From positions 1 to 39,604 of the forward strand of contig SKUN01000030.1 in the NCBI GenBank assembly GCA_007129945.1: a stretch of DNA of 39,604 nt. The letters run 5' to 3'. The notes beneath the pieces were generated by a model. It saw only the letters and a list, made by a program, of their open reading frames with translations, searched no databases and was not told where the DNA came from. A program made the translations under genes and the position numbers. Origin of the DNA: Bacteroidales bacterium (lineage in GTDB: Bacteria; Bacteroidota; Bacteroidia; Bacteroidales; UBA7960). Positions within the stretch are counted from its first letter, which is position 1. Each line of letters opens with the position of its first letter. Shown here one piece after another: positions 9,245 through 28,940 of the stretch.

Positions 9245-9730
9245 TCACTCATTACCGGTATCGGCTTCATCAATGCAGTCCTCGCAATAGCCATAGAAGG
9301 CAAAGGAACGGTGGGTTACCTTGAAATTCATCGAATTTTCAACGGAGACCTTGATCTCCTGCAGGCGGGGGTCACAAAATTCATACACTTTCCCGCAGTT
9401 TGAGCAGATCAGGTGGTCGTGCTGATGGTATTTGAAGGATTTTTCAAACTGGGCCACATTCTTACCAAACTGATGTTTCACCACCAGCTTACACTTCAGC
9501 AATAGTTCGATGGTATTGTAGAGTGTGGCGCGGCTGACCCGGTATTTGTTGTTTTTCATTTTGATGTATAGCGACTCCACATCAAAATGACCATCGGTCA
9601 GGTAGATCTCCCGTAAAATGGTGAACCGCTCAGGTGTTTTCCGGTGACCATTGTCTTCAAGATAAGATGAAAAAATACATTTTACCTTTTCAAAAACTCC
9701 CTGATCGCTTTGGGCATCTGTAATTTCCAT
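9245..9730 (-). CDS. Fur family transcriptional regulator
   Basis: A 161-aa metal-dependent repressor of the Fur/PerR/Zur superfamily. The N-terminal winged helix contains [14 protein letters not shown] and the recognition region [13 protein letters not shown]. The metal-binding core shows [17 protein letters not shown], giving the HxDH regulatory site and the first structural CxxC; the second CxxC is CEDC near the C-terminus. I start it at the ATG at 9730 (MEITDAQ) rather than the in-frame ATG at 9775, because the family alignment begins there. Whether it senses iron, zinc or peroxide cannot be read from the sequence; rubrerythrin 2.7 kb away is a plausible PerR-type target but is not adjacent. 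Confidence 0.93.
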
Positions 9731-9800
9731 ATACTTTGATTTCAACTGTATACCATCAATACCGCACCAACTCACCCCCGGTTAAGGGGTATAAAGATAG

Positions 9801-9837
9801 CAAAAATAACAATTATTTGAAATCTGTATAAATAATT
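9801..9837 (-). promoter_or_regulatory. Putative fur promoter with AT-rich inverted repeat
   Basis: TATTTTTG on the minus strand (9801-9808) fits the -7 element, although no TTG lies at the expected distance. Just upstream, AATTATTT (9811-9818) and AAATAATT (9830-9837) form a perfect 8-bp inverted repeat with an 11-nt spacer, covering the position expected for -33. It could be an autoregulatory operator. The spacing differs from the classic 7-1-7 Fur/PerR box. Confidence 0.4.
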
Positions 9838-9858
9838 AAGCGGATAACTGCAAACCAA

Positions 9859-12111
9859 CTACTTAGCTTCGGCTTCCAACTTGCCAATCCGGGATACCTT
9901 TTGTATCCCCTTGATTTTTCTCAGCTTATTGATCAGTTTGTTCAGGTGCTTGGTGTCATTGATATAAAGCATCACCACCCCTTCAAACACACCATCCTGG
10001 GTATCAAAATGGATATTCCTGATATTGATATTGTACTCACTGGAGATGGTGTTGGTCAGATTCTGCAGCAGCCCGATTTCATCAATCCCCTTTACCCTGA
10101 TGCCTGAGAGGAAAGCAATCGATTTATGGGTCATCCACTTGGCTTTCACCACCCTGTAAGCATACTTGGCCATCAGCTGCTGGGCATTGGGGCAGTCGTT
10201 GCGATGGACCTTGATCCCCTCACTGACCGTCACAAACCCAAAAACATCATCCCCCGGAATCGGGTTGCAGCAAGGCGCAAGCGAATAGGTCAGTTTTTCG
10301 AGGTTATCGCCGATCAGCAATGTGTCGGGCTTGTCCTTGAGCTGCTGGCGGATCGGGTCCTGGACCTCCACCTTACCGGGCTGACTTTCTTTGGTTCTGG
10401 AAAAAGGATTCTTAAAGTAGCTGAGAATGCCGCGGCTTTCCTGCTCAGTGGCGTAAGCCTTCAGGTCTTTCTGACTGATCTTGCCGGTAGCCACCTGGTA
10501 ATAAAGATCCATGGGTGATGGGAGCCTGAAATAATCCACAAGCTTCTGGATGTTCTCCTGGTGGTTATCGATCTTCAGTTGCTTCAGCTTGCGTTCCAGG
10601 ATTTCCTTTCCTTCGTCAGCCTGAATTTTCTTCTGCTCTTTAAGCGCTGATTTGATCTTTCCCTTGGCCCGGGCTGTGGTTACATAATTGAGCCAGTCGG
10701 GCTTGGGTTTTTGTTTTTTCGATGTGATGATCTCCACCTGGTCGCCGCTTTTCAACGTCTGACTCAGGGGAGCAAGCTTGTGATTCACCTTCGCTCCCAG
10801 ACAGTTGTCTCCTATCTGGGTATGAATACTGTAGGCAAAATCAAGGGCTGTGGCCCCTTTCGGAAGGGTGCGCAACTCCCCTTTCGGAGTAAACACAATA
10901 ATCTCATCCGAAAAGAGATTCAGCTTAAAATCTTCGATAAAATCAAGGGCATCTGCGTCGGCACTTTTCAGGATTTCCCGTATGCGGCGCAACCATTTAT
11001 CAATACCACTTTCACCGGATTTCGATTCCTTGTATTTCCAGTGTGCGGCATACCCCTTCTCCGCCACATCATCCATACGTGCCGTGCGAATCTGCACCTC
11101 TACCCAGCGACCCGACCGGCTCATCACCGTGGTATGAAGTGACTCATACCCATTGGCCTTGGGCGTTGAAATCCAGTCGCGCAAACGGTCAGGATTGGGT
11201 TTATAAATGTCCGTAACAATGGAATATGCCTTCCAGCACTCCGCCTTTTCCCGGTCACTGGGGCTGTTGAGCACAATCCGGATGGCAAAAATGTCATAGA
11301 CCTCCTCGAAAGGAATCTCCTTTTTCTGCATCTTTCCCCAGATGGAACTGACAGATTTCAACCTGGCCAGGATGGTGAAATCCATTTCCTCCTTCTGCAA
11401 TGCCTTGCGGATGGGCTGGGTGAAGGTGTTAATAAAACGAGTCCTTTCTTCTTTTGTATCAGCAAGCTTCTGCACAATAGAGCGGTAGGCTTCCGGCTCG
11501 GTGTATTTCATGGCCAGGTCTTCCAACTCACTCTTGATGGCATGAAAACCCAGCCTGTGCGCCAGCGGGGCAAAAAGATAAAGGGTTTCGTTGGCCACCT
11601 TCAGCTGCTTCTTGGGCGGCAGCGAATCAAGGGTGCGCATATTGTGCAGCCGGTCCGCCAGTTTGATCAGGATTACCCGCACATCATCCGACAGGGTCAG
11701 CAGCATCTTACGGAAATTCTCCGCCTGCACCGAGGAAGTCTGATCAAAAATATCAGAGATCTTGGTCAGCCCGTCAATGATACGGGAGACCTCCTCGTCA
11801 AAATATTCGGTAATGTCTTCAAGGGTATAGTCTGTATCCTCTACCACATCATGCAACAGGGAACAAACCACACTGGTGGCGCCAAGCCCGATCTCTTCAA
11901 CGCAGATGCGGGCCACGGCCATGGGATGGTAAATGTAAGGTTCACCGCTTTTCCTCCGGTGCTCACGGTGAGCATGCATGGCAAAATCAAACGCCTTACG
12001 GATACGCTTCCTGTCTTCCTTGCTCATGCCCGGCCGGCAGACAGTCAGCAGCCCACGGTAATTTTTCAGAATTTCCGTACGTTCCTTCTCGGGTGAAATT
12101 TGGTTCATCAT
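9859..12111 (-). CDS. Bifunctional (p)ppGpp synthetase/hydrolase, Rel/SpoT
   Basis: A 750-aa RelA/SpoT homologue controlling the stringent response. From the N-terminus: HD hydrolase domain with the intact HDVVED motif; synthetase domain with RLKSVSSIWGKM (the RxK type of bifunctional enzymes), YDIFAIRIVL and the G-loop region ISTPKANGYESLH, then VEVQIRT; a TGS domain (IIVFTPKGELRTLPKGATALDFAYSIH written in parts as IIVFTPKGEL and LPKGATALDFAYSIH); a zinc-finger/conserved Cys region (LAPCCNPIPGDDVFGFVT); and a C-terminal ACT domain. An in-frame ATG at 12231 would add 40 residues, but the -7 element TATCTTTG (12140-12147) lies inside that extension, so translation starts at 12111 (or the adjacent ATG at 12108). 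Both catalytic sites look intact. Confidence 0.96.
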   Translation of the reverse strand: MMNQISPEKERTEILKNYRGLLTVCRPGMSKEDRKRIRKAFDFAMHAHREHRRKSGEPYIYHPMAVARICVEEIGLGATSVVCSLLHDVVEDTDYTLEDITEYFDEEVSRIIDGLTKISDIFDQTSSVQAENFRKMLLTLSDDVRVILIKLADRLHNMRTLDSLPPKKQLKVANETLYLFAPLAHRLGFHAIKSELEDLAMKYTEPEAYRSIVQKLADTKEERTRFINTFTQPIRKALQKEEMDFTILARLKSVSSIWGKMQKKEIPFEEVYDIFAIRIVLNSPSDREKAECWKAYSIVTDIYKPNPDRLRDWISTPKANGYESLHTTVMSRSGRWVEVQIRTARMDDVAEKGYAAHWKYKESKSGESGIDKWLRRIREILKSADADALDFIEDFKLNLFSDEIIVFTPKGELRTLPKGATALDFAYSIHTQIGDNCLGAKVNHKLAPLSQTLKSGDQVEIITSKKQKPKPDWLNYVTTARAKGKIKSALKEQKKIQADEGKEILERKLKQLKIDNHQENIQKLVDYFRLPSPMDLYYQVATGKISQKDLKAYATEQESRGILSYFKNPFSRTKESQPGKVEVQDPIRQQLKDKPDTLLIGDNLEKLTYSLAPCCNPIPGDDVFGFVTVSEGIKVHRNDCPNAQQLMAKYAYRVVKAKWMTHKSIAFLSGIRVKGIDEIGLLQNLTNTISSEYNINIRNIHFDTQDGVFEGVVMLYINDTKHLNKLINKLRKIKGIQKVSRIGKLEAEAK

Positions 12112-12162: not shown

Positions 12163-12375
12163 AGTCGGCGCTTCGCGCCTCCGGTTGTTAGTTCTCACGG
12201 GATGAGGACTGTAAGGGTTGCCCGTATTCACCGGACGAAGCTAGCTGGTTGTTGGTTTTCACGGGCCGCGTGAACCAACAACCAACAACCGCGTGAGCCG
12301 TTTACCAGCCTATCGGCAGCTTTCCCAATCCATGGCCCATGAGAACCAACAACTGGAGGCGCGCCAGCGCCGACC
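12163..12375. repeat. REP/MITE-like inverted-repeat element
   Basis: The terminal arms, 12163-12201 and 12336-12375 (inverted), match over ~38 bp with about four mismatches and one indel. Each arm contains a GC-rich hairpin (GGCGC...GCGCC) followed by the tail GTTGTTGGTTCTCACG or a close variant. Two further tail copies lie inside, at 12248-12263 and inverted at 12269-12282, forming an inner imperfect hairpin (12247-12283). The direct repeat CCGCGTGA occurs at 12266-12273 and 12289-12296. The arrangement resembles REP doublets/BIMEs or a miniature inverted-repeat element. It fills the gap between glyA and rel, ending 3 bp from the glyA stop codon. No transposase is present in the window. Confidence 0.75.
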
Positions 12376-16438: not shown

Positions 16439-16520
16439 AAGGACAAACATCTTTCAAACCTTTAGCCCGTAAATTTTGTTGTGTTTTGGTTGGTGCACAA
16501 TATTAAATGCCCTAAAGGAA

Positions 16521-17450
16521 ATGGAATCGACCCTGCTCAGGTTACTGGCATATTTTGATGTTTTTTCCTACCCGTTAACCAGGGAAGAGCTGCTAAGGTA
16601 TGCCGGTGAAGACCCAAAGAATCCGAAAAAGGCTGATAAAGCACTGTGTAAGCTGGAAAGATCCGGCCTGATCAGTTCTCACAACGGATACTATATTGCA
16701 GGGAAAGACCTCTCTCTAATAGAACGCAGGCGAAAGGGTAACCAACGAACCGGGGAGCGAATGAAAGATGCAACCCGCTATTCGCGTATTATCGCTGCTT
16801 TCCCTTTCGTTCGCGGGGTGTTTCTTTCAGGGTCGATTTCCAAAGGCTACATGTCGGAAAACGATGACATCGACTACTTTATCGTAACCGCTCCCGGCAG
16901 GTTATGGCTGGTTCGCAGTTTACTGACTCTGTACAAAAAAATATTCCTTGGAAACTCACATCATAATTTCTGCATCAACTACTTTGTCGACACTAAAAAC
17001 CTGAAAATCAACGAAATAAACCGTTTCACAGCAACTGAGATCTATTTTCTGACACCAATGTATGGTTGTCATTTGCTTCACGACATCATTAAACAAAACC
17101 AGTGGGTTAAATCATATTATCCTGTCTTTAAACCACATACCGGCTTAAAAAACGATCAGGATAAAAAGCTTAAACACTTTTTGGAATCAATCCTCAAACA
17201 TCAGTATTTCAATCGTCTGGAAAGATATTTATTCCGGTTTTCCAGAAAATATATCCGCAATAAGTACCGGAGGATGAATCCCGGCCACTTCGGACAGGCC
17301 TTCAGCATAAAAGAAAATGAACTGAGGTACAATCCAGGCGCATATCAGAAACGCATCCTTCAAAGATATTGCTGGAAGCTCCGGATAATGGAAAAAAAAC
17401 TGGGAGATTCTCTGCTGGCCGGAATGGCAACAATGCCTTTTAAGACATAA
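16521..17450 (+). CDS. Nucleotidyltransferase-fold protein
   Basis: A 309-aa protein with the minimal pol-beta-type nucleotidyltransferase signature: GSISKGYMSENDDIDYFIV (the hG[GS]...DhD pattern, with the two metal-binding aspartates at about 116 and 118). The N-terminal ~75 residues resemble a winged helix (FSYPLTREELL, then KALCKLERSGLI). The C-terminal half is basic and helical without a known signature. Start chosen at 16521 (MESTLLRLL), preceded by an A/G-rich stretch, over the ATG at 16476, which adds a Cys/Trp-containing stretch unlike the rest. It ends 8 bp before the epimerase-like gene, so the two are probably co-transcribed in a surface-polysaccharide or lipid group. Substrate unknown. 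Confidence 0.8.
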   Translation: MESTLLRLLAYFDVFSYPLTREELLRYAGEDPKNPKKADKALCKLERSGLISSHNGYYIAGKDLSLIERRRKGNQRTGERMKDATRYSRIIAAFPFVRGVFLSGSISKGYMSENDDIDYFIVTAPGRLWLVRSLLTLYKKIFLGNSHHNFCINYFVDTKNLKINEINRFTATEIYFLTPMYGCHLLHDIIKQNQWVKSYYPVFKPHTGLKNDQDKKLKHFLESILKHQYFNRLERYLFRFSRKYIRNKYRRMNPGHFGQAFSIKENELRYNPGAYQKRILQRYCWKLRIMEKKLGDSLLAGMATMPFKT

Positions 17451-17458
17451 AACAGAAG

Positions 17459-18394
17459 ATGAAAGCTTCTTCCAGGAATATTTGGGTGTTTGGAGGTACC
17501 GGTTTCATAGGTAAAGCTCTTGTAAAGCATTTATCCGAAAACACGGCTGGTCAACTAAACCTGCTTGTTCATAAACGCCTGCCATTCAGACAACTGGAAA
17601 ATTTCAATACAATTGTTGGCAATCTATCAGACTTCGATCCTTCCTGGTTTGACCGCTACCCCCCCGATGTAGTGTTTCACCTGGCACGGCCTGCAGGCAG
17701 TAATCGCCTTACCCGCTCACTGGCTGCATACAGGGGTGAACGAGCCAACCGGCGCATGGTCAATATCCTTTCGGCGCTACCCAAACCTCCTGTGGTTATT
17801 TATGTGTCAGGCTCACTGGTTTATGGAGAACGCCCCGAAAACGATCCAGCTACAGAGAACAGCCCCCTTGCCCCGGAAGCATTTGCCCGTTATTATGTCC
17901 GTAATGAAATCCCATGGAGGGAAGCCAGAGAATCAGGTACATTGGACGTTCGGTTCGCAAGACCCGGCTGGGTTACCGGGCCGGGATCCTGGTTCAGACA
18001 TTTTTTCTGGGAGCCCCTGCAGCAAACAGGACGGATACCATGCTATGGAACAGGAGAGCAGCTGATGTCGCTGATACACCTTGATGACGCTGCCAAACTG
18101 ATCAATGGTCTGAGTCTTTTTGGAGAAAAATCACAGGATATGAACATTTTCGCCATACCCGCCATCAGGCAACTCGATTTCTGTAACATTTTTGCCAGGC
18201 AGACAAATGCCTCCGTTATGCATGTCAATGAAAAAAATGTCCGCAGGCAATACGGTTCCACAACGGCAAAAGCATTGACTACTTCTGTTACAATGCAAAC
18301 GCTTCATCATGAGCTAATGCAAAAAACCGGCATTAATTATAAAAATACGGAAGATCTACTGGCCCATGTGATCAGGTTTTTTGAACACGAATAA
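17459..18394 (+). CDS. NAD-dependent epimerase/dehydratase-like protein (extended SDR)
   Basis: A 311-aa extended short-chain dehydrogenase. The dinucleotide site is VFGGTGFIGKALV (10-22), followed by VVFHLARPAGSNR and VIYVSGSLVYGE, where the catalytic Ser/Thr strand is expected. The usual YxxxK is not recognisable: the aligned region reads FARYYVRNEIPW, with Asn/Glu where Lys should be. Downstream, FARPGWVTGPGSWFRHFFW matches the substrate-binding region of sugar epimerases. Thus the fold is secure, but the catalytic mechanism is doubtful. It is probably co-transcribed with the nucleotidyltransferase upstream. Its last 39 nt overlap the 3' end of the convergent methyltransferase. Confidence 0.82.
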   Translation: MKASSRNIWVFGGTGFIGKALVKHLSENTAGQLNLLVHKRLPFRQLENFNTIVGNLSDFDPSWFDRYPPDVVFHLARPAGSNRLTRSLAAYRGERANRRMVNILSALPKPPVVIYVSGSLVYGERPENDPATENSPLAPEAFARYYVRNEIPWREARESGTLDVRFARPGWVTGPGSWFRHFFWEPLQQTGRIPCYGTGEQLMSLIHLDDAAKLINGLSLFGEKSQDMNIFAIPAIRQLDFCNIFARQTNASVMHVNEKNVRRQYGSTTAKALTTSVTMQTLHHELMQKTGINYKNTEDLLAHVIRFFEHE

Positions 18395-19165
18395 CGTATA
18401 CTCTCCCCACGACCAGAAAAATGTTTTGTTCAGCATGCGGTCAAAACGCCAGAAATAAGGACTGAACTTTTTCAGTAAACGGCTCAGGCGATGGTAATAC
18501 CAGGCCGGATGAGTGATGCTGTAACCTTTTCGTTTTATCAGCTGGTAGCCGGAAAATGCCCGCTTTATCTCCCGCGGGCTGTAACAGCGACTGGGCAAAT
18601 GTTGTGACGGGGAATACCCGCCCCAGTGTGATTGATAACGGGAAAAAGCCCTGCGCCAGCGAAACTTCAGCATCTCTAAAACCATACCGGCCACATAATG
18701 CTTGTTGACAAAGGAAAGCACAAGCTTTCCGCCGGGAGCAACAACTCTGTCAATGTTTTCAGCAGCAACAGTTAAGTCCTCTACTGTGTTGAGCGCACCG
18801 AAAAAAACATATACCATGTCGAAACTCCGTCCGGGAAACAAAGAAGCCAGGTCTTCAACGCTGCCTTTGAAAGCCTCCACCTGGTCAAGCCCGGAAAACT
18901 CAGCCTTTTTGGCTGCCACTTTTTGCATCTCCCCTGAAATATCAATTCCTGCCACAGAAACACCGGAATGGGTCGTGGAAAAGTGAATCATATCCATTCC
19001 GGTTCCGTAGCCAATCTCCAGCATTTGCCTGAAGCGAAATCGTTTTACCTCTTCCCGGAAGTCCTGACGTATTCTTTGTAAAACATAGTTGTCCCAATAA
19101 CGGGCATCAAAATCGCCTGCATCCCTGTCATAATATGATCCGACCTCTGTATAAAAATGCTTCAT
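18356..19165 (-). CDS. Class I SAM-dependent methyltransferase
   Basis: A 269-aa methyltransferase. Motif I reads MLEIGYGTGMDMIHF, with Tyr in place of the common Cys, followed by VAGIDISGEMQKVA and the catalytic-face strand FDMVYVFFGALNTVEDL, then VVAPGGKLVLSF. The C-terminal third is rich in aromatic and basic residues (RFRWRRAFSRYQSHWGG-type composition), consistent with a membrane-near lipid or glycan acceptor. It starts 9 nt downstream of the O-antigen ligase-family gene on the same strand, so the two form an operon and probably act on the same surface polymer. The last 39 nt overlap the convergent SDR gene. Confidence 0.85.
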   Translation of the reverse strand: MKHFYTEVGSYYDRDAGDFDARYWDNYVLQRIRQDFREEVKRFRFRQMLEIGYGTGMDMIHFSTTHSGVSVAGIDISGEMQKVAAKKAEFSGLDQVEAFKGSVEDLASLFPGRSFDMVYVFFGALNTVEDLTVAAENIDRVVAPGGKLVLSFVNKHYVAGMVLEMLKFRWRRAFSRYQSHWGGYSPSQHLPSRCYSPREIKRAFSGYQLIKRKGYSITHPAWYYHRLSRLLKKFSPYFWRFDRMLNKTFFWSWGEYTLFVFKKPDHMGQ

Positions 19166-19174
19166 GCTGAATAA

Positions 19175-20536
19175 CTATCGTTTTACATTTAATAAGCCAC
19201 GACCCATCGTGCTGCCGGCGGAAATGTGATAATTCGCCACCATCCATGCCGCGGTACTCCAAAAAAGAAAGGCAAACTTATCGGTGGCCAGAAAATTATT
19301 TACCAGGGCATGGAAAAGATAAGTGGATAAGGCCAGAAAAGCCACAGTAATATATATTATTCGGGGATGTTCCCGGGGAAGACCAAAGACCACATAAAAC
19401 CAGCGTCCGATTAATAACAGCCAGGCCAGCAGGCCAAACACCCCCATCTCACTGAGCGCAAGAAGGTATTCAGAATGAGCCGTTCCACCGGAACCGTCGG
19501 GAATATCATGGGGATCTGTTACTGTTAAACGGCTCATATAAGCAGGATCCTGATAAGGAATGTAAGTAAATTGATACGTTCCGGGGCCAAAACCAGTCAA
19601 AGGTTTTTCTTTAAACATGCGCCAGGCAGAAACCCAGCGATTGATCCGTTCAAGATTGGAAACATCTGTGGTAATGTTGCTAACAGAAACCGTCCGATCA
19701 ATAAAATTCGCATTATCACCATAAGAAACCACTTCCACCGTGTGTAGTCTTTCCAGAATGGGTTTTTGAAACACCACCCCAACCATGATCATCACAGTCA
19801 AAATCATTAAAATGTAATGCAGTTTGGCCCTTTTTAGATAAACCAGGTACATCGCTGCTGCAAAAAACAAACTGAAAAACGCAGCCCGGCTGGTACTGAA
19901 TAAAGCCGCCAAAATAAAAAACACCCCCAAAGAAAAAAAGAGATAACGGTTATTTGCCTGGAAAATGGCAGCCGCAGTCCAGAAAACACCTAACAGGGCA
20001 ACAGAAGCTCCAAAAATGGTGTGATCATTATAAAAAGGCCGGAAGATGCCCCTTGCCACTACCGGGTTCCAGTCATATTGGCCAAACTGGTAAATTGCCC
20101 AGAGAGCAACGACCATTACTCCAAGGCCGTAAAACAAAAGCATTTGGGGAAACAACCGGGGATACTGCCGGAAAACCCGGATCATATACACGTAGAAAAC
20201 GAGGATATACAGCAGATTGAGAAGGGAGAATTTTACAGAAACAGTGATTATTTCAGAAAAAACCGTCGTGACCACATACACAAGAAGTAGGGGAAAGACC
20301 CATACCGCCTCCTTAAAGACAAATGTTTTCCACTTGGCTGGATATCTTATTACATCCATTAGCAGCAAGCATCCGGCAAGGGCTATCAGGGGTTCAGTGG
20401 GAACGCGAAGCATTGAGCCGGGAGCAACACCGATTTCAACCGAAAAAGGCAGTAAAAAAGCCAAAATCTTGAGTAATATTAGCTGAAACTTCATCTGATC
20501 TACCATATAAGCCATGCCAGCGATAAAAAGGCGCAT
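19175..20536 (-). CDS. O-antigen ligase / Wzy family polysaccharide membrane protein
   Basis: A 453-aa integral membrane protein with roughly ten to twelve hydrophobic segments. The large periplasmic loop, late in the protein, carries the Wzy_C/WaaL hallmark TGFGPGTYQFTY followed by AHSEYLLALSEMGVFGLL. Such proteins either polymerise O-units (Wzy) or ligate glycan to lipid A core or protein (WaaL/PglL); the sequence alone does not decide. The start is the first ATG, but ATGs at 20506 and 20494 are equally possible since hydrophobicity begins right after them. It is the first gene of an operon with the methyltransferase 9 nt downstream. Confidence 0.88.
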   Translation of the reverse strand: MRLFIAGMAYMVDQMKFQLILLKILAFLLPFSVEIGVAPGSMLRVPTEPLIALAGCLLLMDVIRYPAKWKTFVFKEAVWVFPLLLVYVVTTVFSEIITVSVKFSLLNLLYILVFYVYMIRVFRQYPRLFPQMLLFYGLGVMVVALWAIYQFGQYDWNPVVARGIFRPFYNDHTIFGASVALLGVFWTAAAIFQANNRYLFFSLGVFFILAALFSTSRAAFFSLFFAAAMYLVYLKRAKLHYILMILTVMIMVGVVFQKPILERLHTVEVVSYGDNANFIDRTVSVSNITTDVSNLERINRWVSAWRMFKEKPLTGFGPGTYQFTYIPYQDPAYMSRLTVTDPHDIPDGSGGTAHSEYLLALSEMGVFGLLAWLLLIGRWFYVVFGLPREHPRIIYITVAFLALSTYLFHALVNNFLATDKFAFLFWSTAAWMVANYHISAGSTMGRGLLNVKR

Positions 20537-20712
20537 ACAACAGCAATGTCAGAAATACACATGAGCTTCATCTTGTGCAATGCCCGACCCATATTTTCTT
20601 TTAACTAACAAGTAATACATAAATGTAACAGAAAATGTTATTGTCAGGTTTAGATAAAGCTAAATTATTTCACAACAGAGTTCTTTCCAGCTCCAATCAA
20701 ACTTTAATTACC

Positions 20713-20720
20713 TATCTTTG
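20713..20720 (+). promoter_or_regulatory. -7 promoter element upstream of MDR oxidoreductase
   Basis: TATCTTTG on the plus strand; the -33 half is not obvious. The predicted start near 20727 gives a ~83-nt leader that contains a small open frame at 20740-20805. The rest of the 273-bp gap 20537-20809 is AT-rich, with a 5-bp inverted repeat (TAACA/TGTTA, 20626-20640) and no gene. Confidence 0.55.
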
Positions 20721-20739
20721 TTGTTAATAGTATAATAAA

Positions 20740-20805
20740 ATGAATTTATACGAACATAAGGTACAACTACAAACGAAACTTAAGGTTTTACCTATTTTAA
20801 TTTAA
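20740..20805 (+). CDS. Possible 21-codon leader ORF
   Basis: An ATG 13 nt after the predicted start site opens a 21-codon frame (MNLYEHKVQL... ending PILI) that terminates 4 nt before the ATG of the oxidoreductase. It could be a leader peptide or translationally coupled small protein, or simply chance in an AT-rich leader. No family recognised. Confidence 0.25.
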   Translation: MNLYEHKVQLQTKLKVLPILI

Positions 20806-20809
20806 ACAT

Positions 20810-24049: not shown

Positions 24050-24116
24050 CTTCAGCCGGTATTTTTTGCAAATTGCACCCTTTCGGGTATTTTTTGACAA
24101 TTCCGACTTTGAATTA

Positions 24117-24130
24117 TACCCGTTCGGGTA
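24117..24130. terminator. Small hairpin between convergent genes
   Basis: TACCCG-TT-CGGGTA forms a 6-bp stem with a very short loop, in the 89-bp gap between the convergent M14 peptidase and methyltransferase genes. A sibling motif ACCC-TTTC-GGGT followed by six T lies at 24077-24095. Together these may act as weak terminators. Confidence 0.3.
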
Positions 24131-24138
24131 CAGATATA

Positions 24139-24981
24139 TTAAAGCGAAGGGGAAAAAAATGCATTCACCACCACAAAAGGAATGCTCAGTTTCATCCCCC
24201 CGTCAATTTCCGATTGCCGGTTCAGCGCATCTTCCACCCGGGCAAACACCTCCCCTGCCCGCTCCGGCGGCAGGATGTCAACCCAGGCATTCAGGAAGCC
24301 AGACCGGATCTGATAATGATTGAGCATGGCCGTTCCATTGGTAAAGTGATAGTTGAACTGGTCATACGCCAGGTCCTTCACCACGAAGCCGAGCTGACGC
24401 AATTCTTCCAGGACATGATCCAGGGGTGGTCTTTTGGCGGCGATATGCCGGTGCATCCGCTCCACCTCCTCATCCAGACCAAGCTCAATCAGCACCTGTT
24501 CGAAACAATTGTAAAACTCAAACATGCTCTTGTCCAGGTTCAGGCTCAGCAGCAGCTGTCCCCCTGCCCTGCTCACCCGGGCACATTCAGCCAGCACCTT
24601 TTTCCTGTCATCCACATTATTGATGCCGTTGTTACTGATAACCAGATCAATGCTGCGATCATCCAGGGGAATGGATTCGGCCACCCCCTCCATGATGCGC
24701 ACATTGCCAACCCCGTAAAGATCCGCCTTTTCGCGGGCCCGGGCACAGGCCTCCTCCCAGGGGTCAATCCCGTATACCACCGAACTTTCGCCCAGCCGCA
24801 TAGCCAGCTCAATCAGAGGAAAGCCGCTCCCAAAGCCAATGTCCAGGGCTGTCAGCCCGGGTTTGTACTCCACCGCTTCCAGCAACTTCACCCCGAACGG
24901 CGCCGACCACAGCGGCAACTCATCGCCGATATTCACCACGCCCCCGGTGGGGGTGTCTTTTCTCAGGTATGACTGATCCAT
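24139..24981 (-). CDS. Class I SAM-dependent methyltransferase (UbiE-like)
   Basis: A 280-aa methyltransferase with motif I ALDIGFGSGFPLIELA, post-I VYGIDPWEEACARA, motif II DLVISNNGINNVDD and motif III RAGGQLLLSLN. The order and spacing match the Methyltransf_11/25 group, to which ubiquinone/menaquinone methyltransferases belong, but no quinone-pathway genes are nearby, so the substrate is unknown. The C-terminal part (LPPERAGEVFARVEDALNRQ) looks like a small capping domain. It converges with the M14 peptidase and is divergent from the decayed ABC transporter. Confidence 0.85.
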   Translation of the reverse strand: MDQSYLRKDTPTGGVVNIGDELPLWSAPFGVKLLEAVEYKPGLTALDIGFGSGFPLIELAMRLGESSVVYGIDPWEEACARAREKADLYGVGNVRIMEGVAESIPLDDRSIDLVISNNGINNVDDRKKVLAECARVSRAGGQLLLSLNLDKSMFEFYNCFEQVLIELGLDEEVERMHRHIAAKRPPLDHVLEELRQLGFVVKDLAYDQFNYHFTNGTAMLNHYQIRSGFLNAWVDILPPERAGEVFARVEDALNRQSEIDGGMKLSIPFVVVNAFFSPSL

Positions 24982-25144
24982 ACAAACTATGACATTTTAT
25001 CCGGGGCTATACCCCGGGTTTGTACCTCTCATGCATCAAAGAATAAAGCTACAAATAATTGGAACAATACGCATAGACGGTTTTTTTTTCATTTGTTTTT
25101 TCACAACCGGGCCCGCAGCTATCCGGAATGCACTTATCCATTTA

Positions 25145-25997
25145 ATGATAAAGCTCGAAAATATTTCCCTTTCCCTTGACGGGAAGCAGTTGTTTGACAA
25201 ACTGTCGACAGAAATACCTGCCGGCGGACGCCTGCTCATCAGCGGCGAATCGGGCAGCGGCAAGACCACCCTGCTCAGGATGTTGCTGGGATTTGTATTG
25301 CCCGACCAGGGAAGGGTGTTGATTGACGGGCAGGAACTCCGGCTTGACAATGTGTGGCAGCTGCGGCAGAAAATGGCTTACGTGAGCCAGGAGATGCAGA
25401 TCGGCCAGGGGCGGGTCGAAAGCTTCATCAAAGAAGTGCTCCGGTTTAAGAACAACAGACACATTGACTATGAAAAGGATAAGGTTCTCAGCCTGCTGGA
25501 TGACCGGGCAGCTATTCCTGATGGGCATCCTGCTGGTATACCTCTTCCGGTGGGACAACTCCTGGCTAAATATTGCCTGGGTGATTGTCATGATGTTCTT
25601 TGCCTGTTTTGCGGCCATGGTCAACAGCAAGATCTCCTTCCGGCACTTTTTTGGTCCGGTTTTCCTGTCCTATTTTGCAGGGACCGGTTTCGTGCTGCTG
25701 TCGCTGGGTGCCAACCAGCAGGAAGCACTTTTGCCGTACTTTCGTGATGCCATGCTGGCAGCCATGCGCCCGTTCCTGGCCAACATGGCCACCATGGGCA
25801 TTGTGTCACTGCCCGGCATGATGACCGGTCAGATCCTGGGCGGCGCCGCCCCCCAGACCGCCATCAAATACCAGATCGCCATCGTCCTGGCCATCTTTGC
25901 GGCCCTCACCATCAGCGTCAGCCTTTCCATCTACTTCTCTTCACGCAGGGCTTTTGATGACTACGGCATTCTGAAACCGGGGTTGTTCAGGGAATGA
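25145..25997 (+). pseudogene. Decayed FetA/FetB-type (YbbL/YbbM) ABC transporter
   Basis: The first part (25145-~25497) encodes the start of an ABC ATPase: Walker A GESGSGKTT, then the Q-loop KMAYVSQEMQ, then ...VLSLLDD. The signature LSGG, Walker B and H-loop are missing. In another frame the sequence continues, from ~25495 to 25997, as a UPF0014/FetB-like permease (MTGQLFLMGILLVYLF ... GIVSLPGMMTGQILGG ... AAPQTAIKYQIA), lacking its first ~45 residues. By recalled comparison with E. coli FetB, a further ~50 residues are missing in frame near 25690-25700 (GTGFV joined to LLSLGANQQ). An originally two-gene iron-exporter-type operon has thus collapsed by at least two deletions. Neither product can be functional as a transporter. 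Confidence 0.8.
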
Positions 25998-26026
25998 TTT
26001 ATCACGAAAAAAAAAGACACTGAGCA

Positions 26027-26549
26027 ATGAATAAACCCACTGAAAAAACAATCAGTTGGGGCATCATGGGCCCCGGCAAAATCGCCCGCAAGTTTGCCCG
26101 CGACCTGCAAAAAGTTCCGCATGCCAAGCTATATGCCGTGGCATCAAGGAATTATGACAGGGCAGAAGCCTTCGGCAAGGAATACAGCCTGCTGTGCCTC
26201 AGCCGGAAAAAAGCCGTTTTGTGCGAGAAGCCGCTGGCCCTGGACACCACACAGGCACAAGAAATGATCGCTGCCTCCAAAGCCCATCATGTGTTGCTCA
26301 TGGAAGCCATGTGGACCGCATTTTTGCCCCACTTTCAGGCTGCCATGCAACAAAATTGAAAAGGAGGGTAAAACGAAGCAATACACCTTTACCAACCGCG
26401 GAGAAGGGTTCGTACATGAAATAGCGCATTTCTGTGATCTGCTGCGGGAAGGCAAGACCGAAAGCCCCGTGATGACTTTCGACACCAGCCTGCAGCTTAC
26501 AGGTCTGCTGGATAAAGTAAGAGGCAAGATCGGGTTGCAATATGATTGA
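26027..26549 (+). pseudogene. Decayed Gfo/Idh/MocA family oxidoreductase
   Basis: The N-terminus is a good Rossmann start (ISWGIMGPGKIARKFARDL) and runs to AEAFGKEY. It then jumps in frame to SLLCLSRKKAVLCEKPLALD, lacking the ~40 residues that normally hold the second half of the NAD domain. It continues to WTAFLPHFQAAMQQN and a stop at 26357-26359. In a different frame, 26361-26549 encodes the canonical C-terminus (GEGFVHEIAHFCDLLREGKT, then ESPVMTFDTSLQLTGLLDKV). About 150 residues of the substrate domain are missing. Two deletions, one of them frameshifting, make this a pseudogene. Confidence 0.82.
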
Positions 26550-26580
26550 TGGATCAGCCGTGTTATTGATGGATCAGCCG
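26545..26580. repeat. 16-bp direct repeat with 20-bp period
   Basis: ATTGATGGATCAGCCG occurs at 26545-26560 and 26565-26580, overlapping the stop codon of the Gfo/Idh pseudogene and, with the second copy, the stop codon of the DUF4236 gene. Such a short tandem duplication fits replication slippage. Confidence 0.9.
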
Positions 26581-27794
26581 ATCGTTCCTGCCAACCTTGC
26601 CAGATCGGGCGCACTTAGTATCAGCGGGCTTTTCCGCCCGTCAAGGGTCAGCTGCAGGGTATGATCCTCAAGAGAGAGTGTGGTATCCAGGATGCGGTTC
26701 CGGGGATAAGACCGGCTGCCCTGCCCGACAATGAGCAGGCGGTTGTCGGTCACGTAGATATCCCCTTCCATATCCGTCACATAACCCAGCTCTTTATACC
26801 GGACACGGTCGCGCTGGTATTGCTGCAGGATCTTTTCTTTCAGCAAACGGCCTTCTGTTTTGAAATAACAGGTTTCATTGTTTTTGAGCGGGATGTCCAC
26901 CTCCACCGGTTCAGGGGGTGCTTCCACTGCATCCCTCAACTCACACAGTTGCCGAATCATGCCCAGCTCCCACTCCACCTCCCCGGCGGGGATGCGCAAC
27001 TCCTCCCGCAGCCGCGAGAGCTGCTGCTCCTCTTCCGGAGTGATCATGTGGTCTTCAATCACCTCCTCCACAAAGTCCGAAAAAGCCCCCGCCTTCATCC
27101 GCCTGATATGATGCGCAGGCAATGAGAGTTCTCCTTCCAGGGCTTCTACCTCGGCAGGCTGAATATAGTCGGGGTCTTCAAAGTATGCATCCAGAAAACG
27201 GGCAAAAGCATGATAGTGAAGCCAGATCTTCCAGTTGCCCTGCACCCCTTCATCATGAAGCAACCCCAGTATTTCAGGTACCGGGTTTCGCTGGTCCAGC
27301 CCCCGGTCAATGCCCCGGAACACTTCCCGTGCCCGGGATGCCTGTTTTTCATGACGCCCTTTCAGGAAGATCCCGCCCAAAAGCAGGATCAATGCAGGAA
27401 TGATCAACGCCCAGTCATTGTTCCCGATCCCGGCCAAAGCCAGCAGCGCCGCAGCCACGAACAGCAGCGTGATCGTCCGCGGACGGCCCGGGGCTGCAGG
27501 CAGATCCGGCATCGATACAGGCCGTGCCCCGGACTCCGGGCAATAGGTAAGACCCGTATCCACAAAAATGCGCGTTTCTCCATCTGCGCGCGATGATGCC
27601 CGGCCAACCCCTTTCCTGCCCTGGCTGGCATATTTCCGGTAATAGAGGCCGTGACGTCCTCCATGCACATACGGGCCCTTGGGCCCCACTCCTACCCGGG
27701 CACCCGTGATCCCGCCGGAAACGCCCACGCCACTTTTGGACAAATTCAGCCGCAGCGGCCCCAGGTTCAGTCCTTTTCTTAAATAAAATGCCAT
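26574..27794 (-). CDS. DUF4236 domain-containing membrane protein
   Basis: A 406-aa protein. The N-terminal ~56 residues are a clear DUF4236 domain (MAFYLRKGLNLGPLRLNLSK, then GVGVSGGITGARVGVGPKG, ending GLYYRK). A pair of hydrophobic segments follows near 128-165 (TITLLFVAAALLALAGIG and WALIIPALILLLGGIFL). The central cytosolic part contains a helical repeat reminiscent of TerB-like domains (HMITPEEEQQLSRLREELRI), and the C-terminus ends in a PH-like strand region (DNRLLIVGQGSRSYPRN). Function unknown; DUF4236 proteins are membrane-associated and often occur in accessory or stress loci. It has no close partner genes. On the minus strand TATCTTTA at 27888-27895 is a 7/8 match to the -7 element. 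Confidence 0.85.
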   Translation of the reverse strand: MAFYLRKGLNLGPLRLNLSKSGVGVSGGITGARVGVGPKGPYVHGGRHGLYYRKYASQGRKGVGRASSRADGETRIFVDTGLTYCPESGARPVSMPDLPAAPGRPRTITLLFVAAALLALAGIGNNDWALIIPALILLLGGIFLKGRHEKQASRAREVFRGIDRGLDQRNPVPEILGLLHDEGVQGNWKIWLHYHAFARFLDAYFEDPDYIQPAEVEALEGELSLPAHHIRRMKAGAFSDFVEEVIEDHMITPEEEQQLSRLREELRIPAGEVEWELGMIRQLCELRDAVEAPPEPVEVDIPLKNNETCYFKTEGRLLKEKILQQYQRDRVRYKELGYVTDMEGDIYVTDNRLLIVGQGSRSYPRNRILDTTLSLEDHTLQLTLDGRKSPLILSAPDLARLAGTIG

Positions 27795-27992: not shown

Positions 27993-28940
27993 ATGCTGCC
28001 TGATTTCAAATCATTCAAGCTACCTGAAAATTTTCTGATTGTTGGCGCTGCTGTTGAAACCGGCATATTCGGGGAATTAAAAGACCGGGCACTGACGCTG
28101 AATGAGCTGGCCGTGGCCACAGGGGCAAACCAGCGGGCGTTGCGGATCGTAACCGAGGCCCTGGTTTCATTGGGATATCTTGCCCATGACAACGGGATGA
28201 TAAAACTCACACCAGGGTGTTATTCAGTTTTGTACGACCAGGAAAGCCCGGACTATCAGGGCTTTGCATTTATGCACACCTATAAGCTTTTGCCAAGGTG
28301 GCTGGAGCTGCCAAACATTCTGAAAACCGGCAAACCGGTGCAAAAAATGGGAGATCCGGCCGAACAAGAATATTTCATTGAGGCCATGAGCCACTATGCC
28401 AGTGAAGGTGCCACTGAGATAGCGGCATACTGCCTGCAAGACCTCCCTGCCAACCCTGAAGTGCTTGACATTGGCGGCGGACCGCTCACAAATGCCAGGG
28501 CTTTTGCCCGGAAGGGAGCAAAGGTTACCATACTTGACCTTCCGGAAGTCGTCGAAATGATGGAGCCGGAAATTGAGCCGGGACTTCCCATAAAAATGGT
28601 GAAGGGCAATTTTACCGTTGATCTTCCGGATGGCCCCTTCGACCTGGCTTACCTCGGCCATATCTGTCATATCATTGGTGAAAAGGAAAACAGGAAACTC
28701 CTCAGGGATGTGGCCGGAAAACTCAAAAATGGAGGAACAATAGTCATTAATGATTTTATCCGTGGCACAGGACCCGGCCCTGACACCTTTGCAGTCAACA
28801 TGCTGGTTAACACCGACTCGGGTGGCACATGGACCTATGAGCAGTATAAAACCTGGCTTGAAGATGCCGGCTTTACCGTGTTCCCGTATGCCACCGTAAG
28901 TGACAGCCAGTTAATAAAAGCCCGGAAAATTCAGGGTTAA
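27993..28940 (+). CDS. SAM-dependent O-methyltransferase with winged-helix dimerisation domain
   Basis: A 315-aa protein of the COMT/acetylserotonin methyltransferase type. Residues ~1-75 form the winged-helix dimerisation domain (LPENFLIVGAAVETGIFGEL, then LTLNELAVATGANQRALRIV). The Rossmann core has motif I EVLDIGGGPLTNARAFA, post-I VTILDLPEVVEMM, and the catalytic region DLAYLGHICHIIGEKENRKL, where His is a likely general base, followed by LKNGGTIVINDFI. The family usually methylates hydroxyl groups of small aromatic or polyketide metabolites. It is monocistronic, with its own promoter and no biosynthetic cluster around it, so the substrate is open. Confidence 0.9.
   Translation: MLPDFKSFKLPENFLIVGAAVETGIFGELKDRALTLNELAVATGANQRALRIVTEALVSLGYLAHDNGMIKLTPGCYSVLYDQESPDYQGFAFMHTYKLLPRWLELPNILKTGKPVQKMGDPAEQEYFIEAMSHYASEGATEIAAYCLQDLPANPEVLDIGGGPLTNARAFARKGAKVTILDLPEVVEMMEPEIEPGLPIKMVKGNFTVDLPDGPFDLAYLGHICHIIGEKENRKLLRDVAGKLKNGGTIVINDFIRGTGPGPDTFAVNMLVNTDSGGTWTYEQYKTWLEDAGFTVFPYATVSDSQLIKARKIQG

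Follow-up and report, generated by a model that had tools for sequence, protein, structure and literature searches.

Probable recent and clustered deletions in a fetAB-oxidoreductase locus of a Bacteroidales draft genome

In G000, the draft genome of an uncultured bacterium, the two genes of an ABC transporter and a neighbouring oxidoreductase gene are present only in ordered pieces. The question is whether the missing parts were deleted in the organism or dropped by the assembly. The window, i.e. the whole stretch of DNA that was analysed, is contig C16 (39,604 bases) of G000 (2,412,300 bases in 209 contigs; rated 92% complete with 0.22% contamination). A preliminary description of the window had proposed a transporter operon collapsed by internal deletions, with an assembly artefact as the alternative. 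Comparison with relatives suggests that the locus was probably killed recently by real deletions in this lineage, with loss of a cluster for iron export plus an oxidoreductase. 

The preliminary description had advised comparison with relatives holding the intact gene pair, and the relative G015 (contig C270) indeed carries an extra 393 and 165 bp at the two joins in the transporter genes. Its pair is whole (FetA of 211 aa, FetB frame of 284 aa) and served as the reference for these joins. For gene X, the oxidoreductase gene and the DUF4236 gene, the reference was G017:C185, the nearest relative found for the locus (88-90% identity to the window), whose contig takes in only about the last 47 codons of fetB, with fetA and most of fetB lying outside it. 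FetA-FetB (YbbL-YbbM in E. coli) is an iron efflux ABC transporter. The intact FetB of G015 matches TIGR00245 (1.4e-32), its sole NCBIfam match, and the FetA matches NF007601 FetA (1.7e-32). However, both scores are far under the NCBI cut-offs (113 of 410 bits for FetB and 113 of 292 bits for FetA), the best single match of this FetA is CydD (1.1e-34), likewise below its cut-off, and the copies in the window are truncated. Solved structures gave no match to the G015 FetB at 1e-3. The highest-ranking related loci in named collections came mostly from Bacteroidales/Bacteroidetes metagenome-assembled genomes, several of whose isolate names we take to denote soda-lake samples; this refers to the relatives and not to G000.

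The remains of fetA in the window (119 codons) share 51-82% amino acid identity, over 108-119 codons, with FetA of ten relatives' loci. They end past the Q-loop (SQEMQIG), and their match to the ABC_tran profile is limited to positions 2-78 of 137. By our assignment of the motifs, the Q-loop included, FetA of G015 has the signature LSGGE, Walker B and the H-loop, all of which are gone from the copy in the window. At the first join (D1; Table 1) fetA passes out of frame into the middle of fetB, as the preliminary description had said for the 25480-25510 interval, and its in-frame block missing from the permease at 25685-25705 corresponds to the second join (D2). FetB in the window matches the family profile (PF03649, UPF0014, 242 positions) at 27-102 and 156-242 only, positions 1-26 and 103-155 being missing. 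In the same search 20 of the 22 matching relatives cover 237-242 positions; the other two are G039, with 201 positions and a second piece in another frame, and G037, with a weak 80-position match. Three blocks of the window are collinear with G015:C270 (25066-25504 with 189-625, 25488-25701 with 1002-1215, and 25695-26000 with 1374-1679). The start of fetA and the end of fetB match relatives, in agreement with the earlier view that both outer ends are recognisable. The remains do not, however, form the single open stretch described before but occupy two frames that overlap (ORFs 24989-25747 and 25464-25997).

Table 1. Features of the locus and other length differences (window coordinates unless another stretch is named)
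Feature	Position	Strand	Basis or remark
Palindrome-bearing stretch (ACCCTTTCGGGT, TACCCGTTCGGGTA)	24061..24164	+	78% match to G015:C270 95-197
Methyltransferase gene, apparently intact	24139..24981	-	Pfam Methyltransf_11
fetA remnant, first ~118 codons through Q-loop	25145..25504	+	Start at 25145; match to relatives' FetA
Join D1, loss of 393 bp (remainder of fetA and beginning of fetB), 5-bp repeat ATGAC	25500..25504	+	Against G015:C270
fetB remnant, middle part, UPF0014 positions about 27-102	25500..25699	+	Profile and G015 alignment
Join D2, in-frame loss of 165 bp (55 codons), 5-bp repeat CTGCT	25695..25699	+	Against G015:C270
C-terminal remnant of fetB (UPF0014 positions 156-242), own stop retained	25695..25997	+	Profile and G015 alignment
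Join D3, loss of about 667 bp with gene X among it, without a clear repeat	26000..26026	+	Against G017:C185
Gfo/Idh/MocA oxidoreductase remnant, first part	26027..26186	+	Pfam and alignment to relatives
Join D4, in-frame loss of 99 bp, flanked in G017 by a pair of 11-bp repeats	26176..26186	+	Against G017
Oxidoreductase remnant, second part	26176..26352	+	Pfam and alignment to relatives
Join D5, about 366 bp lost, frame broken, repeat of at most 2-3 bp seen	26350..26357	+	Against relatives
Oxidoreductase remnant, C-terminal part, other frame, own stop	26356..26549	+	ORF list and alignment
DUF4236 gene, intact, control for local divergence	26574..27794	-	1221-base frame in window, G017 and G015
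Between-gene length differences	L137 12121; L138 6542; L138 7978; L141 3145; window 27977		Survey; against G015
Gene-edge length difference, 65 bp	window 9757		5' edge of ORF 9245-9775; may touch first codons

The preliminary description was right about internal deletions at both joins in the transporter genes, but it had confined the damage to the transporter and noticed only two of five losses. The damage extends to 26549: gene X is gone and the oxidoreductase gene is cut twice. The five losses (393, 165, ~667, 99 and ~366 bp) amount to ~1.69 kb of an inferred ~3.1 kb. Only 29 bases separate the fetB stop from the oxidoreductase start in the window, so gene X, within ~667 bp, has been lost; the flanks of this join (25857-25999 and 26026-26186) correspond to 1-143 and 837-997 of G017:C185, where gene X lies on the minus strand. 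Family searches with gene X gave no match. Like Gfo/Idh/MocA oxidoreductases (PF01408), the next remnant matches 75-118 of the 120 positions of the NAD-binding domain; frames are full-length in G017, G015, G007 and G024, whereas the window copy has two internal deletions, seen against both G015:C57 and G017:C185. The DUF4236 gene that follows has a dN/dS of 0.15-0.18 and lies within an 88% match of 1,520 bases to G017:C185.

The remnants share features with pseudogenes formed by deletion: intact orthologues are collinear (fetA-fetB in G015:C270; gene X, the oxidoreductase and DUF4236 in G017:C185), the frame is broken, and a second copy was not found in an assembly rated 92% complete. A search of G000 with the UPF0014 profile found the window fragments only. 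When the fetAB-X region of G015 was searched against G000, the matches were likewise the window's own fragments; the oxidoreductase region of G015 gave these fragments and weak matches on C85 and C131, which were rejected as lost pieces because they correspond to the neighbour gene of the G015 oxidoreductase. No oxidoreductase match was found in G000 at the E 1e-30 cut-off.

The kept blocks, which bear on the age of the event, align without gaps and carry no stop codon in the 432 codons compared. Against G015, dN/dS is 0.189 for fetA and 0.065 for fetB, as compared with 0.08-0.16 and 0.02-0.07 in pairs of intact relatives with finite dS. With the other four relatives, fetB gives 0.07-0.10, slightly over the intact pairs, and fetA, where the ratio is finite, 0.05-0.12. 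For the oxidoreductase blocks the value is 0.202 with G017 and 0.10-0.15 with three other relatives, and intact pairs range over 0.11-0.20. These values, at or a little over the top of the intact range, are at most mild evidence of some relaxation. Polarised amino acid changes number 13 in the window only and 10 in the sister only (one-sided P 0.34); by gene, the window-to-sister counts are 7 to 3 in the oxidoreductase, 3 to 5 in fetA, and 1 to 0 and 2 to 2 in fetB. Together with the dN/dS values, the oxidoreductase count allows for some relaxed selection, either preceding or following the cuts. The neutral share of the branch since the split from G017 is below about 15%, a rough bound that assumes 60% of codons to be countable. 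Since there are no stops, dN/dS is near that of intact pairs and amino acid changes are not clearly in excess, the loss looks recent, and the earlier impression of little point-mutation decay was borne out.

The order of genes also differs among close relatives. In G015 the order is fetA-fetB, gene X, methyltransferase and DUF4236; in G017, the end of fetB, gene X, oxidoreductase and DUF4236; and in the window, palindromes, methyltransferase, truncated fetA, truncated fetB, truncated oxidoreductase and DUF4236. Thus the locus has been rearranged among close relatives, which fits a true genomic change.

It is nevertheless conceivable, though we consider it unlikely, that the organism is intact and that short islands were joined over gaps in thin coverage by chance overlaps of their ends. 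The kept islands are about 160-300 bp, the size of short reads, and the gaps 99-667 bp; the kept blocks show little decay, and the draft assembly is fragmented. Furthermore, step-by-step decay would not readily give five large deletions unaccompanied by small indels or by a clear excess of substitutions. However, two of the five joins lack the overlap that a joiner needs, although relatives 10-20% diverged could hide one, and the repeats at the other joins are of 5-11 bp. Usual assembly k-mer lengths are far above 5-11 bp. In the 395,821 bases of G000 sampled no N run was found, and the rearrangement in relatives, with a methyltransferase in G015 where G017 has the oxidoreductase, also argues against an artefact. 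Base composition, considered as a sign of poor coverage, showed no clear difference between lost (0.48-0.53) and kept (0.48-0.56) sequence.

A survey for assembly faults compared 41 stretches of G000 (395,821 bases), among them the window, with 66 from G015 and G017 (440,134 bases; eleven G015 stretches carry an N run, and ten of these, L237-L246, are N throughout). Its scope was gaps of at least 30 bp within matches, together with the junctions linking collinear matches on the same contig; a loss at the end of a contig was invisible to it, and matches below 72% identity or shorter than 100 bases were dropped. Across the 102,725 bases that aligned, clear gene-internal losses were seen at the fetA-oxidoreductase locus only. 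Six other length differences of at least 30 bp were found, all shorter in G000 (Table 1), and this uniform direction could mean that the assembly is prone to dropping sequence. The one at L141 3145 was rejected as a gene-internal loss, as the relative's 'gene' there is a questionable frame of 100 aa flanked by two long frames, and L136 3335 (27 bp, in the opposite direction) was under the size limit. If five gene-internal events were placed at random over about 104 kb, the probability of all landing in one particular 3.1-kb segment would be of the order of 1e-6 or less. This argues against a process acting evenly across the assembly, not against a local failure of coverage. The artefact that the preliminary description had kept as its alternative has therefore lost ground to the survey, the absence of N runs, the two joins without overlap and the rearranged relatives, and still keeps some chance.

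On the favoured reading, that the deletions are real, the joins bear on how they arose. Direct repeats bound the lost segments in the relatives at three of the five joins (5 bp at D1, 5 bp at D2 and 11 bp at D4), with no clear repeat at D3 and D5. A 5-bp repeat computed for D5 was left uncounted because the window letters change over at another place. With the deletion length fixed, 0.4-1.9% of positions show a repeat of at least 5 bp, and for a 99-bp step 0.36% show one of 11 bp. Because the repeats counted at D1 and D2 are the best ones lying up to about 30 positions away from the join, chance is higher there, at a few per cent each. As the repeats were read in relatives 10-20% diverged, the true ones may be longer or shorter. 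Joins at repeats of 5-11 bp with the intervening sequence lost resemble the RecA-independent deletion between short direct repeats described for bacteria (e.g. PMC5426353). The locus differs in its five losses within about 3.1 kb, the scarcity of other decay and the two joins without clear repeat.

We infer a forebear with fetA-fetB, gene X on the other strand, the Gfo/Idh/MocA oxidoreductase gene and DUF4236, from which the five stretches would have been deleted in the G000 lineage. The deletions would have taken place in the organism and not in the assembly alone, at least three of them between the direct repeats, as by slipped-strand or microhomology deletion. They may have been close in time, perhaps in one complex replication-slippage event. 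In a mutation-accumulation study of E. coli, 67 wild-type lines gave 10 non-IS deletions, with rates per genome per division of 9.00e-4 for substitutions and 2.77e-4 for structural variants, 83 variants in all (PMC10292909). By our arithmetic from these figures, non-IS deletions arise at about 4% of the substitution rate, although rates of E. coli may not carry over to this lineage. Five deletions without small indels or a clear excess of substitutions would thus be an unusual mix, and the readings left to separate are a burst or single complex event and an artefact.

A single mutational event, in which a replication fork or repair intermediate jumped forward five times through about 3 kb and left ordered islands of 160-300 bp, is a rather doubtful proposition. 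If true, it would parallel on a small scale, in a bacterium, the multi-jump template-switch rearrangements described for eukaryotes. Slow, stepwise neutral decay of a long-dead locus is very improbable: the five separate joins, the variability of the locus within the genus and the slightly raised dN/dS agree with it, but the kept blocks are without stops, small frameshifts or a significant excess of amino acid changes, and the rough bound on the neutral share of the branch is low. It is hardly credible that the shortened genes are working variants with a mini-permease translated from a start inside fetA, as the 165-bp loss in frame and the fetB dN/dS against G015 might suggest, since FetA is without its signature motif, Walker B and H-loop, FetB has lost its start, its first segment and 55 residues from the middle, the permease frame opens with TTG and then ATG, both in fetA-derived sequence, nearly all matching relatives have a full-length permease, and a low dN/dS is equally expected from recent loss.

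The window thus lacks the complete set of ATPase motifs (Walker A, signature, Walker B and H-loop) and the full-length UPF0014 permease that a functional FetAB transporter requires, and, as far as sequence can indicate, a working FetA, FetB, gene X product or oxidoreductase is not to be expected from what remains. Caution is needed that fetAB is not counted as present in G000. Most likely this is recent gene loss of an ordinary, known kind, unusual only in the number of adjacent cuts with so little other damage. Should the joins prove true, the scarcity of other decay would make the locus a clear instance of clustered deletions in a bacterium from the wild, of use in asking if such clusters can form in a single step.

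Within the genus, fetB was found in 12 of 20 genomes; the eight others include G002 and G014, rated 98% and 96% complete. One of the eight, G017, nevertheless has the last part of fetB at the edge of a contig; failure to find fetB in an incomplete genome is therefore weak evidence. The oxidoreductase is sporadic: it was found in ten of the 41 genomes searched at E 1e-30 or better, and in three of the 20 of the same genus (G007, G015 and G017), but identity is as low as 34-45% in six of the ten, which are perhaps not orthologues. In G015:C57 (L157) an oxidoreductase gene lies elsewhere in the genome, at 9618-10613, beside what we presume to be an aldo/keto reductase gene, and a similar gene is near the oxidoreductase of G007 (L188). 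At G039:C4 198143-198864 (L022, L025; same order), fetB is likewise in two overlapping pieces, the N-terminal one with three internal stops, and is perhaps another broken copy.

Several observations concern the neighbourhood. The palindromic stretch is directly upstream of fetA in G015, whereas in the window the methyltransferase gene intervenes. The palindromes (TACCCGTTCGGGTA and ACCCTTTCGGGT) are evenly spaced upstream of fetA in G015 (L156 69-165), and two of the three are kept in the window; it is possible that they are operator sites for some regulator. An Rfam scan gave no match at the gathering score, and a scan for promoters and terminators yielded nothing of use. The methyltransferase gene, which lies between gene X and DUF4236 in G015, shares 70% amino acid identity over 274 aa with the G015 copy, and the intact neighbours at 26574-27794 and 27993-28940 share 83-84%; the window gene may be a paralogue or a separate acquisition. 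Elsewhere in the window, an intergenic repeat with inverted arms (12163-12375) has more than 50 matches across many G015 contigs and appears to be a dispersed palindromic (MITE- or REP-like) element. At 16439-20809, ~4.1 kb with genes for an O-antigen ligase (Wzy_C), an epimerase and a methyltransferase lies between genes that are nearly adjacent in G015:C222 (4293 and 4547). Parts of it match G015:C11 at about 69%, and it looks like a variable surface-polysaccharide island.
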